The position numbers and the translations under genes are program-made. Of a stretch of DNA of 39,083 nt, positions 5,077 through 39,083 are shown piece after piece; positions within the stretch are counted from its first letter, which is position 1, and each line of letters opens with the position of its first letter. The notes below the pieces were generated by a model. It saw nothing but the letters and a program-made list of their open reading frames with translations. It ran no database searches and was not told the origin of the DNA. The stretch spans positions 1 to 39,083 of the forward strand of contig CAJOQK010000172.1 of the NCBI GenBank assembly GCA_905236885.1, read 5' to 3'. Source of the DNA: an uncultured Bacteroidales bacterium. GTDB taxonomy: Bacteria > Bacteroidota > Bacteroidia > Bacteroidales > WCHB1-69.

Positions 5077-6116
5077 GACGGCAGGCGTGGATAGTTGGTC
5101 CTTGTGCTGCGGAATCAATACAGCAACTGTGGGATACGGCGCGTGCAGTATGCCGTTTTCCGGAGGTGGAACTGTTCCGTTGCGGTGTGTGGAAGGCACG
5201 TTCCCAACCTTCCGACTTTGAAGGGATGGGGGAAGCTGCCCTGCCTGTGCTGGAGCAGATTCAAAAGGAGCTGCATCTGCCCGTTTGTGTGGAAATCGCC
5301 TATCCCTGGCAACTGGAAAAAATATTGGAACATGGGATTTCACATGCCTGGATTGGGGCGCGTACAACGGTGAATCCATTCATGGTGCAGGCGTTGGCCG
5401 ATGCCGCCCGAGGCACCGGTTTGCATTTGATGCTCAAAAACCCGCTGGCTCCCGACCTGAAATTGTGGGAGGGCGCGTTCAACCGTTTCAGGGCAGCCGG
5501 ACTGCGTGATCTGAAGGCCGTATACCGTGGCTTTGCCACCTCTTTGCCCACAGTTTACCGTAACCATCCGATGTGGAACGAGTATATCCGCTGGAAAAGC
5601 CAGCATCCCGACATCCCGTTGTATGTCGATCCAAGCCATATAGCCGGCAGGCGCAACCTGATACTGGAAGTGGCTGAAAAGGCGCTGCTGCTGGATTGTG
5701 ACGGTCTTATGTTGGAGGTGCATACCAATCCTGCGGAGGCGTTGAGTGATGCAGGACAGCAGCTTTCGCCAGAGGCATTGGCGGAGTTGATGGCGCATCT
5801 GCCGCTTCAGGGAAGCCGTTCTCTGGATGATGCCCTGGTGGCGCAAAGGGCGGCCATTGACGCTCTGGATACCGATTTGCTGGCCATTTTGTCCAAAAGG
5901 ATGGAAGTGGTGCGGAAAATCGCACGCATCAAGCAGGACAGCCGCCAGCCGTTGTTGCAGGTGGAACGTTGGCAGAAGGTGATGGAACAAGTGCTACAGC
6001 AGGCTGAAAAACTGCATCTTCCGGCAGATTTTGTCACCGAACTGATGCAGTTGGTGCATGCCGCCTCCATTGAAGAGCAGGAGCGGGAATTAAAAAAATC
6101 GCATTCCCCACAATAA
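5073..6116 (+). CDS. Bifunctional 3-deoxy-7-phosphoheptulonate synthase / chorismate mutase (type II)
   Basis: DAHP synthase motifs (IVGPCAAES, GARTTVNPFMVQALADA, LYVDPSHIAGRR, DGLMLEVHTNP) fused to a chorismate mutase helical domain (RAAIDALDTDLLAILSKRMEVVRKIARIKQ). ATGA overlap with the upstream gene. Confidence 0.92.
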   Translation: MRRQAWIVGPCAAESIQQLWDTARAVCRFPEVELFRCGVWKARSQPSDFEGMGEAALPVLEQIQKELHLPVCVEIAYPWQLEKILEHGISHAWIGARTTVNPFMVQALADAARGTGLHLMLKNPLAPDLKLWEGAFNRFRAAGLRDLKAVYRGFATSLPTVYRNHPMWNEYIRWKSQHPDIPLYVDPSHIAGRRNLILEVAEKALLLDCDGLMLEVHTNPAEALSDAGQQLSPEALAELMAHLPLQGSRSLDDALVAQRAAIDALDTDLLAILSKRMEVVRKIARIKQDSRQPLLQVERWQKVMEQVLQQAEKLHLPADFVTELMQLVHAASIEEQERELKKSHSPQ

Positions 6117-6185
6117 AGCGTACGGTTGTTGCGTTCATTATAAAAACCCTGTAATTCATCTGGTAATTTCAATAAACAGAGGAAA

Positions 6186-7064
6186 ATGAAATCTATTCTG
6201 AAAGGCACCGGAGTTGCCCTGATTACTCCTTTTAAATCGGATTATTCTATTGATTTTGAGTCCATCATGACTTTGGTGGAGCAGCAAATTGAGGGCGGAA
6301 CGGACTATGTGGTCGCCCTGGGCACGACTGCGGAGACCCCGGCCATGTCGTTTGCGGAGCGCAAGCAGATACTGCAGACAGTGGTGGAGGCTGTGGACGG
6401 ACGGGTGCCGGTGGTGGCCGGAATAGGCTGCAACAACCCTCTGGAGGTGATTGAGCAGATCCATCTGTTCGATTTGAAAAAGGTGAGCGCCATCCTATCT
6501 GTGGCCCCTTATTACAACAAGCCGAGCCAGCAGGGTTTGCTGACGCATTACCAGATGATTGCCAAGGAATCTCCGCTGCCGCTGATACTTTACAACGTGC
6601 CGGGGCGGACGGGTGTGAATATCGCAGCCTCCACAGTTTTGACATTGGCCAGGCAGTGCCCGAACATTGTGGCGGTGAAGGAGGCCTCCGGCAATCTGGC
6701 TCAGATTATGCGGATTATGGCGGACAAGCCGGCGGACTTTTCCGTCATTTCCGGGGATGACCAGCTCACTTTGCCGTTGCTGGCCTGCGGTTTGGACGGA
6801 GTTATTTCTGTGGTGTCCAATGCCTATCCTAAGGAGATGTCCCAAATGGTGCGGCTTGCCTTGAAGGGGGACTTTGCCGATGCACGCACGCTGCACTATC
6901 GTTTGCTTCCGGTGATGCAGGCTTGTTTTGCCGAAGGCAGCCCGTCGGGGGTGAAAACCTTCTTGGAGGCGCAGGGAAGGGCGGAGGCTCGTGTGCGCCC
7001 GCCGTTGGCTCCCGTGTCGGCTGAGTTGCGCGAACAGATTTGTCAAATGGTAAAAAACTGGTAA
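6186..7064 (+). CDS. dapA: 4-hydroxy-tetrahydrodipicolinate synthase
   Basis: GTGVALITPF, ALGTTAETPAMSFAER, PYYNKPSQQGLLTHY, LYNVPGRTGVNI, VAVKEASGN, VISGDD motifs. Confidence 0.96.
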   Translation: MKSILKGTGVALITPFKSDYSIDFESIMTLVEQQIEGGTDYVVALGTTAETPAMSFAERKQILQTVVEAVDGRVPVVAGIGCNNPLEVIEQIHLFDLKKVSAILSVAPYYNKPSQQGLLTHYQMIAKESPLPLILYNVPGRTGVNIAASTVLTLARQCPNIVAVKEASGNLAQIMRIMADKPADFSVISGDDQLTLPLLACGLDGVISVVSNAYPKEMSQMVRLALKGDFADARTLHYRLLPVMQACFAEGSPSGVKTFLEAQGRAEARVRPPLAPVSAELREQICQMVKNW

Positions 7065-7065
7065 T

Positions 7066-8094
7066 ATGCCGCATAGGGTCATCATAGGAAATTTGCAGAA
7101 AAAGATCTACTATCCCTTCTACCTGTTGGAAGGGGCGGAGCCCTATTTCATCGACAAGATAAGCGATTATTTCCAGAACCATTTTTTTGAGGATGAGGGT
7201 TTGCGGGATTTCAACCAGCAGGTGGTGTACGGGCGTGACGTGCGCATGGAGGAGATTGTCTCCATGGCGAAGGAATATCCCATGATGTCCGACCATCGGT
7301 TGCTCATTGTGCGGGAGGCTCAGGACATTCCCAAGTCGCCAGGGCAAAAGGAGGCGGACTATTTTTCCGTACTGACCCAATATCTGCAGCAGCCGCAAAT
7401 GCAGACCCTGTTGGTTTTCTGCTATAAATACAAGACTGTGGACAAGCGTTCCGCCTTTTTCAAGGCGGTGAACAAGGTGGGCTGCGTGTTTGAGGCGCCG
7501 ACAATCTATGAGGAGCAGCTGCCAAATTACATCAAAATGATGGCACAGGAGCGGCGGCTTCAAATCGATGACCAATCGGCGCTGCTGATGGCCTCCCATA
7601 TCGGTGTGGATTTGTCCCGTATTGAAAAGGAGATGGACAAGTTCACCAATCTTTTACCGCCCGATGGGAAAATACAACCGGCAATGATTGAGGAGCAGGT
7701 CGGCATCAGCCGCGAATACAACGGGTATGAGCTGGCCAATGCCTTATGGGAGAGAAATGAACAAAAAGTATTTGATATCCTTAGCTTTTTCTCCAAAAAT
7801 CCGAAGAATTATCCTGTGATGAAGATTCTCCCTATCGTTTACGGTGCTTTTCAAAAAATCCTGCAATACCACTATGCGGTTGACAAACAGAATTTGAAGG
7901 CGTTGGGTGTTTTTTGGAAATCGGAGGCCATTTTTCGTTCGGCGGTGCGCTATTATAGCTTGCCTGTGACAATACGAATCATCCGTATGCTGAAGGAGTA
8001 TGACTTGAAATCCAAAGGTTACGAAGGTTGCAGCACGGAGGGGACGGAATTGTTGGAAGAGCTCTCTTTCCGTATTATGCATGCTTTGGTGTGA
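7066..8094 (+). CDS. holA: DNA polymerase III subunit delta
   Basis: YPFYLLEGAEPYFIDKISDYF, HRLLIVREAQDI, DLSRIEKEMDKF and overall length fit HolA. Immediately follows dapA. Confidence 0.88.
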   Translation: MPHRVIIGNLQKKIYYPFYLLEGAEPYFIDKISDYFQNHFFEDEGLRDFNQQVVYGRDVRMEEIVSMAKEYPMMSDHRLLIVREAQDIPKSPGQKEADYFSVLTQYLQQPQMQTLLVFCYKYKTVDKRSAFFKAVNKVGCVFEAPTIYEEQLPNYIKMMAQERRLQIDDQSALLMASHIGVDLSRIEKEMDKFTNLLPPDGKIQPAMIEEQVGISREYNGYELANALWERNEQKVFDILSFFSKNPKNYPVMKILPIVYGAFQKILQYHYAVDKQNLKALGVFWKSEAIFRSAVRYYSLPVTIRIIRMLKEYDLKSKGYEGCSTEGTELLEELSFRIMHALV

Positions 8095-8114
8095 CCGTGA
8101 ATGGTTTTTTCCTT

Positions 8115-11100
8115 ATGAAAAGCTGCCGAGGAAACAGAGCTGCATGGAGATGGCTGACATTTTCCTGCCATGTGCCGCTCTTTTTTTTCTGCCTTTTTCC
8201 TCTTTTGTTGCATGCACAACAGGATACAACCGTAAAAATATTTAAACACAAGGATTTAAATCAAATAGAACCGAAACTTTACGACTACAAACGACATTTG
8301 CTGGATCCTCAGGCGGAAGCTGAGCTGTTCGCCCCTTTTGTTTCAGATGAAACACTGCGGACTTCCGGCAGCCTCACGCGGGGCATCACTGTGGGCAGTA
8401 ACAGGGACCTCTCCATGGATGCCAGCCTGAACCTGCAGCTGTCGGGCATGCTTTCGGAGGATTTGTCCATCACCGCCTTCATTAGCGATGAGAACCTGCC
8501 TCTTCAGGCCTCTTCCGCATATTCGTTGCAGGGAAAAGATTTTGACCGTATCTATATCCGGTTGGATTATAAGGACAGGGCGAGCCTTTTGGCGGGTGAT
8601 GTGGATTTGAGTGACTTTGAGACCTATTTTTTGCGTTTTCACAAACAGGGTAAAGGTGGAAAAGGGGAGTTCCGTTGGAGGGATACCGTCCGAAAGATGG
8701 ATTATGCTGTGACCGCTGCCGCTGCTGTAGCCAAAGGTAGTTTTTGCAGGCAGCAGCTGAAAATCATTGATGGAGTGCAGGGTGCTTACAGGTTGCAGGG
8801 AGCTGATGAGGAGCAACAAATTATTGTGTTGTCGGCATCGGAGCGGGTGTATGTGGACGGCGTGCTGGTGGAACGGGGTGAAAATGCAGATTATACTATT
8901 GACTACAATCTGGCGGAAATTACCTTCACGGTACGGCAGCCGATGACTGCCGACAAAAGGGTGGTGGTGGAGTTTGAATATTCGGACCAACACTATGTAC
9001 GGATGCTGACCCATCTGCAGAGCGCGATAACACGCAGACACTGGCAATGGAATTTTGCGTTTTACAATGAACAGGATCTGAAACGGCAATCCAACCAGCT
9101 TGAATTGGATTCGGCTACGGTGGCCTTTTTGCGCCGGATGGGAAATGCAGGTTCATCCGGCTATTATCCCATGGCGGACAGCATCGGTTTCCTGTCGGAA
9201 GAGGTGTTGTACAAGCGGATTGACAGCGTTGTGTCGGGACAAAGGTATGATTCCGTGTATGTATATTCTACAAATAAGGACAGTGCCTGCTACCGGTTAC
9301 GCTTTTCCTACATGGGTGAGGGGAAGGGAAATTACGTGCGGCTGCAGAGCGGTGTGAACGGACAGGTGTATGCTTGGGTGGCGCCTGTGAACGGGGTTCC
9401 GCAGGGAAGCTATGAGCCGGTGGTGCCTCTTTTTGCCCCCAAGCGTTTGCAGCAGTACACCACCCGTTTGCAGTTTCGGGACAGCAACCGGCTATTCAGG
9501 GTGGAGGCGGCGTTGTCCAATAATGACCCCAACACATTCGCCTCCAATGACTCTTCTTTAGTGGGTGCGGCGTTGCGTGCACAATGGCAGCGACGGTTTT
9601 GTTGGGGAAAAGGGGTGCGCCCGTGGAGCCTTTTGCCTGATTTGTACGGAGAATGGAAAGGGGCGGGCTTCATGCCGGTGGAATCCTACCGCGATGTGGA
9701 ATTTGTCCGGAATTACAATCTGGCGGACAGCCTGACTGCCAACAGGTCGGAGTTTTTTATGCAGGCAGGTTGGCAGATGTGCAGCCCTTGGATGGACAGG
9801 CTTTCTTGGCAGAGCGTGTTGTACCGCATTCCCCGTTCGGAATGGGAGGCATTCCGGCACCGCCTGCAATGGAATTCCCATCATGCCGTGTGGGAAAGCC
9901 GTGCGGACATCCGTTTGCTGCAAAGCCAAACAGCCGAATACAATACCCGTTTTTGGCAGGCCGACGGACAGATTGCCCTGAATGTATGGAAAATGCGTAT
10001 GGAATTGTGGGATGGGATGGAGTGGAACACTTATCGTTCCTCCACCGGTTCCCTCATGCCTGAAAGCCAGTCCTACAATGAGTGGAAACTCTCTATGCGA
10101 CAAAGGGACACCAATGCCGGGCAGTGGCAATACAGGTTGGCCTATGCCCAGCGCAAACAGTGGGTGGCGGGAGAGCAGCAGTTGCAGGCCGGTGGTTTTT
10201 CCCGCCACCTGCAGGCGGATTTGGATTGCCGGCGCTGGCGCGAACATCCGTTACAATTTTCCCTGGTTTACCGTTCAATGGAGGCAAAGGATAGCGCCTG
10301 GATGACGCTGCCGCAGGAAAACACGCTTTTGGGAAGTCTGCGCTACAGTGGAAAATGGGCAAAAGGGGCCGTTCAAACCAATTTTTATTACCATACTGGT
10401 ACGGCGATGGAGGAGAAGGTTGCCTATACCTATTTGAAAGTAGCTGACGGACAGGGAGTGTACCAATGGAACGACTACAATGGTAACGGAGTGGAGGAAC
10501 TTGATGAGTTTGAACCTGCCCTGTATCGGGACAAGGCCAATTACATCAGGATTTACCAGGTTTCGCAGGAATATGTCAGGGTGTATGCCAACAGTTGCAC
10601 ATACAGCCTTATTTTGCGTCCGGCAGCAGTATGGCAGCAACGGCACGGCTGGCGTAGGACCCTCTCCCGTTTCAGCTACACCGGCACTTTCCAGTCCCAG
10701 TTGAAGAAGGACAGGGATTTGGTACGGAATTCGGATGCTCCGTTGTGGCAGATTCTGAATCCATATCATACTCAGCTGGAGGACAGCCTTTTGAACACCG
10801 CAAACCTGCAATGGAGAAATCTGCTTACTTTCAATCAGTCCCATCCTGTGTTCGGTGCAGAGGGAATTTTTTCACGAAATATGAATAAATATTTGACAGT
10901 AAATGGATTTGAATATAATGCCTCCACGATTTGTCAGGGAAGTGTCCGCTATCGTATCTGTAAGATTTTGCAGACGAAATGGATGTACAAGTATTCGCAG
11001 ACGGAGGCACATTCGCGTTACATGTCTTCCAAAAACTATTGGTTGGATGCCAGTGAAGTCAGTTGCCAATGGCAGTTCCCATACCGGCTACACTTTTCGT

Positions 11101-36356: not shown

Positions 36357-36364
36357 TACTTTTG
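36357..36364 (+). promoter_or_regulatory. Candidate Bacteroidota -7 element (TACTTTTG)
   Basis: Exact TAnnTTTG 19 nt upstream of ATG 36384 and 43 nt upstream of ATG 36408. Confidence 0.55.
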
Positions 36365-36383: not shown

Positions 36384-39083
36384 ATGAAGAACATAAAAAA
36401 GAATACCATGAAAAGAAGAATCCTTCTGTCAGTAATATATTTTCTCGCCCTGATGCCTTTGTTACGTGCACAGTGTCCGAACTTGGACTTCAGCAATTGT
36501 AATTTTAACGGCTGGGAATGCTACACGGCAAAAAGTGGGTATTACGATAGTAATTGGGTATTTAATTGTAATGGAACCTATTATGATACTCTGGCATGGA
36601 AACTGGAATTGGCTCCCATTTCAGGAAGGCATACCATCATATATGATCCGTATGGAACGGATAATAATACATATTGTGGAACTTACAATGGCTTGCTGTT
36701 GATACCGAACGGTTATCGCTATAGTGCCCGCATCGGAAATGACAACGTTGGTGGAGAGGCTGAGAGCATCCGTTACAGAATTGCAGTGGATTCCACCAAT
36801 TTTTGGGTGACTGTGCATTATGCCGCTGTCTTGGAATTTGCCCAGCATTGGAGTGAAATGGAATCACCACGTTTTGGTATCCGTTTTCAGGATACTACTG
36901 GAAAACCTCTTCCTGTCGGTAATTTGGAGCTTTCTGTCAAGGATACTGCGCAATTGATAAAATGCAGTGGAGTATATTGGAAAGATTGGGATGTGCTGGC
37001 AGTGAACCTTTCCCCATGGATAGGGCAGACGGTAGAGTTGGTGATATATTCCATGGATTGTGGAAAGGCCGGTCATTTTGGCTACGGGTATGCGGTGTGC
37101 GAGTGCGGTGTGAAGGGTAATGTACGCTATTGCAGCAATTCTTCCGTTGCGGAATTGTCTGCACCGTTCGGTTTTTCTTATTATTGTTGGGTGGACAGTG
37201 CAGGCAAGGTGCTGGATACTGTTCAACGTATAAAAATCATTAATCCCCAAATAGGGACTGAATACCGATGCTTTATGAGTAATGTGCAGGGAAGTAAGGA
37301 CACCATTTCTCTGCGGATTCGCCAAACGCTGATATCACCTTCAATTATGTGCCAAAGGGACAGTCTTACACCATTCATCCGTTTGGCAAATAGGTCCGTT
37401 ATAAGCGGAAGCAGATTGGCGAACCAGATCTGGCATATAAACAGACCGGGTGTTGGCACGGAATACATAAGCCGTGATTCTGTGTTTGATTATTGCTTCA
37501 AGGATACTGGTATGTATGAGGTGATTTTGACAGTGTATGCGGAAAACGGCTGTTCTGACACCTGTTTTCGCAGGTTCATGGTGGCTCCAGTTCCTACGGA
37601 TGTTGAGAATGTGAAACTGCTTTCCGTGCGGCCTGATGCGGACAGCCTGGAGGGAGGCAACCTGACCTTTCCGAGGGTGGTGCTTTGCAACACCGGCCGT
37701 GACAGTATGAAAAACATCGGGTTGGAGGTGCTGGTGGTTGACAAGTACGACACGGTGGTCGCCCATCTGCGGGACACCATTGCCGCCATTCCTGGCGGAG
37801 ACACGGCGGAACTGGCCTTCCGCAGCCGTTACACGGTGCCGGACTACACCGGCAGCTACCGGCTGAAAGCGGTTTATGGCACCGACACCATTGTCTCTGT
37901 CGCCCACTGCATATACCGCCCGGACACCTGCGACATCAGCATGCTCTCCGTGCGTCCGCAGCAGGATTCTTCTTTTGGCATCGTGAAACCGGTCGTGCGC
38001 TACACCGGATACCGGAACAGATACACCTATGCGGTGAACCATTGGGACTATGTATATGTATGCCTGTACGACAGCAACAATGTCCGTCTGGGCATGGTCA
38101 ATTACAATGACTACCTCAATTACAAGGATACCACTGTCGTAATGTTCTCCAAAGGCATCAAGGTGTTCAACTATACGGGACGCTACCGGCTGGTGGCCTA
38201 TGTCAGTTACCATGCCTCTAAAAACATGATCCGGTCCAACGACACGGTGTCATGCACGGGCTATTGCACCGGAGACACCATTGACATCCGGATGCTTTCC
38301 GTGCGGCCCAGCAAGGATTCTGCGTTCGGGGAGACGAAGGTCACGCCGGTCTTAAACACATACTATCGCCATCCGGATTTGGTAAACTCCTTTGTGGATG
38401 TCTGCGTGCAGATGTATGACAGCTCGCATGTCCTTCTCCATCAGTTCAAGGATGAAATATTTGTCAATTGTAACACGACGGAGAATAAGGTGATGTCCTA
38501 CGTGGATTGGAAGGTACCCGACTATACGGGGGTGTACTACCTGAAGGCCTTTTTTGTGAATCTGAAAAAAGAGGAGAACCTTTCAACTGCCAACGACACG
38601 GCGTTTTTCAAGGCCCATTGCATCAGGCACCTGAAAACGGACGTGCAGCTGGTCTCCGTGAGGCCGCAGCATGACAGTGCGGAGGCCGGGAACTGGACCT
38701 CCCCTGTGGTTGTGGTTAAGAATGTGGGGGATTTCGATGTGAAGAATATTGTGGTGAATGTTCAGGTGGACACTAACCAAGTCGGCCATTCGTACACCGG
38801 AAAGTTTGCCTGTTATTGGGACACCATCCCCTTCCTTGCAGCCGGCGATTCGGTGAAATGGGTCCTGTCCGCCCGCTACCAGGTGCCGGATTGTTGGGCA
38901 GGCTCATATTATCGCATGTATGCCTGCATTGCTGTGGAGAATGACGAAGTCAGCACGAACGATGATGCCGCTTATAATGCCAACTGTCACAAAACTGTTG
39001 ATTTCAGGCTTGTTTCGTTCCAGATGCCTTCGGACACCTTGTGGGGCGGGGTGCCCGTCTATCCCAAGGTGCGGATTGTCAAC
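36384..39083 (+). CDS. Large secreted multidomain surface protein, 3' end truncated by the window; not in the supplied ORF track
   Basis: Manual translation is open from ATG 36384 (alternative ATG 36408, MKRRILLSVIYFLALMPLLRAQCPNLDF, good signal peptide) to the last codon (39081-39083) with no stop. N-terminal Cys/Trp-rich domain, Ig/PKD-like segment (HINRPGVGTEYISRDSVFDYCFKDTGMYEVILTVYAENGCSDTCFRRFMV), then tandem repeats with LLSVRP/MLSVRP/LVSVRP. Confidence 0.9.
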   Translation, partial: MKNIKKNTMKRRILLSVIYFLALMPLLRAQCPNLDFSNCNFNGWECYTAKSGYYDSNWVFNCNGTYYDTLAWKLELAPISGRHTIIYDPYGTDNNTYCGTYNGLLLIPNGYRYSARIGNDNVGGEAESIRYRIAVDSTNFWVTVHYAAVLEFAQHWSEMESPRFGIRFQDTTGKPLPVGNLELSVKDTAQLIKCSGVYWKDWDVLAVNLSPWIGQTVELVIYSMDCGKAGHFGYGYAVCECGVKGNVRYCSNSSVAELSAPFGFSYYCWVDSAGKVLDTVQRIKIINPQIGTEYRCFMSNVQGSKDTISLRIRQTLISPSIMCQRDSLTPFIRLANRSVISGSRLANQIWHINRPGVGTEYISRDSVFDYCFKDTGMYEVILTVYAENGCSDTCFRRFMVAPVPTDVENVKLLSVRPDADSLEGGNLTFPRVVLCNTGRDSMKNIGLEVLVVDKYDTVVAHLRDTIAAIPGGDTAELAFRSRYTVPDYTGSYRLKAVYGTDTIVSVAHCIYRPDTCDISMLSVRPQQDSSFGIVKPVVRYTGYRNRYTYAVNHWDYVYVCLYDSNNVRLGMVNYNDYLNYKDTTVVMFSKGIKVFNYTGRYRLVAYVSYHASKNMIRSNDTVSCTGYCTGDTIDIRMLSVRPSKDSAFGETKVTPVLNTYYRHPDLVNSFVDVCVQMYDSSHVLLHQFKDEIFVNCNTTENKVMSYVDWKVPDYTGVYYLKAFFVNLKKEENLSTANDTAFFKAHCIRHLKTDVQLVSVRPQHDSAEAGNWTSPVVVVKNVGDFDVKNIVVNVQVDTNQVGHSYTGKFACYWDTIPFLAAGDSVKWVLSARYQVPDCWAGSYYRMYACIAVENDEVSTNDDAAYNANCHKTVDFRLVSFQMPSDTLWGGVPVYPKVRIVN
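37617..39083 (+). repeat. Tandem protein-coding repeats, 108-120 aa each (CARDB-like), at least 5 units (last truncated)
   Basis: Repeat starts at 37617 (LLSVRPDADS), 37941 (MLSVRPQQDS), 38292 (MLSVRPSKDS), 38649 (LVSVRPQHDS), 39009 (LVSFQMPSDT): spacings 324, 351, 357, 360 nt. Second shared motif VPDYTGSYRLKA / FNYTGRYRLVA / VPDYTGVYYLKA / VPDCWAGSYYRMYA. Confidence 0.85.

Follow-up and report, generated by a model that had tools for sequence, protein, structure and literature searches.

A contig-terminal gene for a putative type IX-secreted surface protein with an undescribed jelly-roll head and a stalk that looks recently exchanged between Bacteroidales species

Results

A protein-coding gene cut by the end of its contig

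The window analysed here is the entire contig C172 (39,083 bases) of a draft genome of an uncultured Bacteroidales bacterium (G000; 2.21 Mb in 188 contigs). Its plus strand carries a reading frame that begins at 36384 or 36408 and runs to position 39083 without any stop; since the window is all of C172, the stop is missing because the contig ends. The chance of 900 open codons at the local base composition is about 6e-21, and of the six frames this one agrees best with the codon usage of the neighbouring genes (mean log-likelihood -4.09, versus -4.29 to -4.46). The original prediction had proposed an unlisted gene here, open for about 900 codons, and had not taken the listed antisense ORF at 37341-38213 for the real frame. 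Both points hold: the terminal frame is a real protein-coding gene lacking its 3' part, and the antisense ORF is spurious, because codon usage is best matched on the plus strand.

ATG 36408 agrees with the starts of the homologues better than the alternative upstream ATG 36384. The -7 promoter element of Bacteroidota is TAnnTTTG, and TACTTTTG at 36357-36364, 43 bases 5' of ATG 36408, fits this element; it has no clear -33 partner.

Domain layout of the predicted protein

The encoded protein (P0001) is composed of a signal peptide, a head domain, Ig-like and PKD segments, and a stalk of repeats (Table 1). A modular surface protein with a signal peptide and a PKD-like segment had been anticipated from the sequence, and this layout is supported by a homologue of the same architecture (P0002, see below). 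In the PKD segment, the family profile matched solved structures (ColH, E 4e-8, was the best, followed by 1l0q, 7e-7, and 6aem, 4e-6); as a single sequence the segment falls under the Pfam cut-off. In relatives, the Ig_7 match is weak.

Table 1. Features of the terminal gene and of its counterpart in a second species
Feature	Position	Strand	Basis
Protein-coding gene, 3' part absent	36408..39083	+	open frame; start agrees with P0002 and P0003 starts
Signal peptide, residues 9-29, MKRRILLSVIYFLALMPLLRA before QC	36408..36470	+	by eye; likewise ..RAQ and ..HAQ in the two homologues
Head domain, CBM-like jelly-roll (predicted), residues 30-244	36471..37115	+	38-39 aligned sequences; AlphaFold; Foldseek to CBM61/28/27/16/11
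Ig-like beta segment, limits approximate	37116..37319	+	beta-rich part of 383-residue model, pLDDT 91.5
PKD domain, limits approximate, segments end at about residue 402	37320..37589	+	family profile versus solved PKD structures
Stalk repeat 1, residues 410-514	37611..37925	+	repeat HMM iE 3e-32; 93% identity to P0003 unit 1
Stalk repeat 2, residues 516-631	37929..38276	+	repeat HMM iE 1e-30; 48% to P0003 unit 2
Stalk repeat 3, residues 633-749	38280..38630	+	repeat HMM iE 7e-33; 45% to P0003 unit 3
Stalk repeat 4, residues 752-871	38637..38996	+	repeat HMM iE 3e-32; weak CARDB match, E 0.023; 75% to P0003 unit 4
Stalk repeat 5, first 29 residues, ends with contig	38997..39083	+	repeat HMM iE 5e-8; 97% to P0003 unit 5
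P0003 gene	L077:4262-7423 (G001:C35)		counterpart of window 37611-39083; near-identical and divergent blocks alternate

The stalk begins at residue 410 and contains four full copies and one partial copy of a unit of about 115 residues. The tandem repeats that had been predicted are thus present in the protein but not in the DNA, where we found none in the window; they are not visible there because the units are only 25-40% identical to one another as protein. The single CARDB (PF07705) match in P0001 scores 15.3 bits, under the cut-off of 22.7, and FxLYD (NF038353) is matched in P0002 only (23.8 bits versus a cut-off of 23).

Complete homologues and the missing C-terminus

Two complete homologues were found in other genomes of the same genus. 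P0002 (genome G003; 1,422 aa) shares the head and the Ig/PKD part with P0001 and has eight repeats, and in P0003 (G001; 1,053 aa) the signal peptide is joined straight to eight repeats and a tail, without a head. At the C-terminus each carries a type A sorting domain (TIGR04183; 27.3 bits in P0002 and 35.3 bits in P0003, cut-off 23). They sit elsewhere in their genomes and are not strict orthologues of the window gene.

The alignment with P0003 reaches the last residue of P0001 and leaves 538 residues (about 540), which gives a full length of about 1,440; by this homology the protein would be expected to carry a type A sorting domain behind about eight repeats. A search of its own genome with the complete homologue retrieved the orthologous 3' piece from no contig; what it did retrieve were paralogous tails, on C114, C24 and C43. 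The remainder lies in an assembly gap, and the sorting domain of the window protein itself is a prediction.

The description of the protein as giant has to be withdrawn at this predicted size. The true giants of this genome are the frames on C114 (L006:9803-19999), C24 (L008:7868-19999) and C43 (56-1015), which run to about 3,900-4,200 codons and have similar sorting domains and a related tail region; on C114 and C24 two stalk-type repeats lie ahead of the tail.

An undescribed head domain with a familiar fold

The family of the N-terminal domain had gone unrecognised at the outset, and it matches no model in Pfam, NCBIfam or PHROGs and no CBM model, though the domain is widespread and its fold is CBM-like. 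An InhA-like MAM model matched weakly in three of 38 members of the head family (alignments A1 and A5, 38-39 sequences). Structure prediction, as originally suggested for this domain, returned a jelly-roll for residues 30-244 (AlphaFold, pLDDT 93.9, pTM 0.91). Its nearest Foldseek neighbours are the phage K2-2 tail-spike protein and CBM61, CBM28, CBM27, CBM16 and CBM11, and the top non-phage PDB neighbour is CBM61 with beta-1,4-galactotriose (TM 0.65 by target, 0.47 by query). The fold scores against CBMs are modest (query TM <=0.47, rmsd >=5.5 A, about 8-14% identity), and ephrin-receptor ligand domains appear in the same list.

Matches to P0001, mostly in the head region, occur in 69 of 148 related genomes, and relatives of the head module are encoded in 217 stretches of a species-level collection. 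Nearly all of the 80 best-matching stretches among these 217 belong to metagenome-assembled genomes of Bacteroidales and Flavobacteriales, sampled from the rumen, the gut, digesters and elsewhere. Among 50 complete head-bearing proteins in named genomes, TIGR04131 was found in 35, TIGR04183 in 16 and CHU_C in 37; the head is therefore a general cassette of type IX secretion system (T9SS) surface proteins. Searches of the open-access literature turned up neither this head nor a T9SS adhesin with a CARDB stalk. The family to which the head belongs is undescribed; its fold is familiar.

Several further head genes were noted. A second head paralogue in the window genome (L005:5259-5516, contig C9), 3' of an lpxB-like gene, ends with its contig after 86 codons. 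Contig ends interrupt head genes unusually often (G001:C40, C45 and C50; G003:C87; G041:C61 and C143; G000:C9 and C172), and at L082 the last 160 residues are almost identical in two adjacent genes; near-identical paralogues therefore probably break assemblies. In genus g8 the head sits on proteins of about 760 aa (L090:1734-4028; L091:2130-4403 and 6108-8420). The L090 protein showed no T9SS tail in a Pfam scan and has a weakly Lcl_C-like end (E 0.18), and both L091 proteins end similarly.

A type IX secretion system in the same genome

The genome encodes SprA (2,438 bits, E=0) and, on C126, a PorU-like C25 peptidase of 1,276 codons with PorV (435 bits versus a cut-off of 250) immediately downstream. 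Sorting domains are numerous, with 61 of type A above the cut-off and four of type B. The type A anchoring mechanism is known from Porphyromonas gingivalis. Cargo of this type passes from PorV to PorU, which cuts away the tail and attaches the protein to lipopolysaccharide (PMC10202324; PMC9143113). The early suggestion that the protein might be T9SS cargo is supported by this machinery and by the tails of both complete homologues, its own tail being predicted.

A stalk of alternating near-identical and divergent blocks

Stretches of stalk DNA match the gene of the head-less P0003, from another species (G001), at 95-100% identity, and a divergent block separates them. Residues 435-509 are nearly identical to P0003 at the DNA level (four-fold sites the same at 40/42); identity falls to about 50-68% in residues 510-737 (20/46), rises to about 79-88% in residues 738-864 (39/46) and reaches 93-100% in residues 865-900 (17/18), while the first 25 stalk codons are 79% identical. 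As background, murF, anmK and an MBL-fold gene of the same two genomes show 57-62% protein identity, with four-fold sites the same in 30-39%; three neighbours of the G001 copy gave 45-59%.

The flanking genes place each contig in its own genome, and the position of the gene differs between the two. The surroundings of the G001 copy are not syntenic with the window: the genes beside it have their counterparts on C187 of the window genome, and C187 lacks the stalk gene. Over its length the stalk DNA is common only to G001 among 104 genomes of the family, and of the loci compared, the G001 homologue alone contains the final bases of the window. An RHS-repeat-like gene lies 5' of the G001 stalk gene (L077:8724-10475), and pieces of it are 80-86% identical on C87 and C99 of the window genome, a level higher than the background set by ordinary genes.

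Amino-acid selection behind the divergent block was considered and rejected, as synonymous sites there diverge about as much as in the background genes. For a phage or plasmid origin, we found no protein match in phages and no match of the stalk DNA in plasmids.

Discussion

The pattern of identity along the stalk and the jump in third-position GC at the head/stalk junction suggest that species have recently exchanged stalk segments in a mosaic fashion and that a block was replaced. It is possible, and we propose it tentatively, that heads and stalks of T9SS proteins are swapped as cassettes: the stalk would have come recently from a G001-like donor and been fused in frame to a resident head, and repeats 2-3 would have been replaced by a divergent allele. 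The same near-identity to another species could also arise in an assembly chimera, in which a resident head gene was joined to stalk reads of a G001-like species and the sequence is not one natural gene. The contig does end 1.5 kb beyond the join, the closest stalk, P0003, is without a head, and third-position GC steps from about 0.45 in the head to 0.68-0.77 in the stalk at about residue 405 (in P0002 it goes from 0.545 to about 0.60 only). Yet the reading frame is kept across the join, which coincides with a domain boundary, the 79% identity of the first stalk codons leaves no long shared word there, and in P0002, encoded by a single intact gene of another genome, the head likewise precedes the stalk. 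Because the in-frame join falls at a domain boundary without a long identical word, we judge a chimera less likely than exchange, and improbable.

As for function, we consider it probable from the predicted fold and the tails of the homologues that P0001 is a T9SS-exported, surface-anchored, glycan-binding adhesin of a Bacteroidales bacterium; its part in adhesion is what we infer. The main rival reading keeps the T9SS surface protein and has the head bind a protein (of the host, a sister cell or a partner subunit) in place of a glycan. Jelly-rolls can bind proteins too, protein-protein adhesion often involves jelly-roll and Ig/PKD modules, and the fold neighbours include ephrin-receptor ligand-binding domains and NCAM/CD2-type chains. 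But the head alone ranks CBMs and glycan-binding phage proteins before ephrin receptors, and the source habitats are rich in polysaccharide, which makes a protein ligand rather unlikely in our view. That the protein is instead a secreted enzyme with an accessory CBM is very improbable: CBM-like folds often go with glycoside hydrolases and GH85 enzymes appear in the Foldseek list for the head module, but neither the window protein nor its homologues contain a Pfam or NCBIfam catalytic domain (head, Ig/PKD, repeats and tail only), and for P0002 this reading is already largely refuted.

The window protein shares with T9SS type A cargo (TIGR04183/PF18962) the signal peptide, the extracellular modules, the type A domain of both complete homologues and the SprA/PorU/PorV set of the genome; it differs in that its stalk repeats fall under the CARDB cut-off, its head family is undescribed and its own tail lies beyond the contig end. 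In relatives, the same head is found on many SprB-like/CHU_C gliding or surface adhesins (type B, TIGR04131) with PKD and SprB repeats. In contrast, the homologues of the window protein have type A tails, and SprB repeats and a type B tail, present in other head bearers, are absent from P0002, P0003 and the part of P0001 within the window. The head resembles CBM61, CBM28, CBM27, CBM16 and CBM11, its best non-phage PDB neighbours, in its predicted jelly-roll beta-sandwich, but it is longer (215 residues), shares 8-13% identity with them and has no sequence-family match. The grappling hook protein GhpA of Aureispira is likewise a large multi-domain surface protein, and Foldseek ranks its fragment 6 first when queried with the 383-residue head module; at TM 0.23 and 12% identity the likeness is one of domain type, not of the whole protein.

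We propose that the signal peptide would carry the protein across the inner membrane, and that the C-terminal type A sorting domain, predicted from the two homologues, would carry it through SprA. PorV and the PorU transpeptidase may then cut off the tail and attach the protein to the surface, by analogy with characterised type A cargo. About eight CARDB/FxLYD-like beta-sandwich repeats would form the stalk, which would hold outward, as a head, the N-terminal jelly-roll followed by the Ig-like and PKD segments. Judging from its fold, the head would most likely bind a glycan or polysaccharide, whether on feed particles, in mucus or on other cells.

Apart from a stalk that looks recently exchanged, the window protein is ordinary in kind for these gut bacteria. 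With it, the T9SS surface proteins of uncultured Bacteroidales from rumen and gut gain one more type of head domain, widespread and so far undescribed. The part that deserves a second look is the suggested, possible case of recent head/stalk exchange between species; if cassette swapping is true, these proteins would form a variable surface system whose parts are reshuffled by horizontal transfer, and the pressure behind it might come from phages, protozoa or the host.
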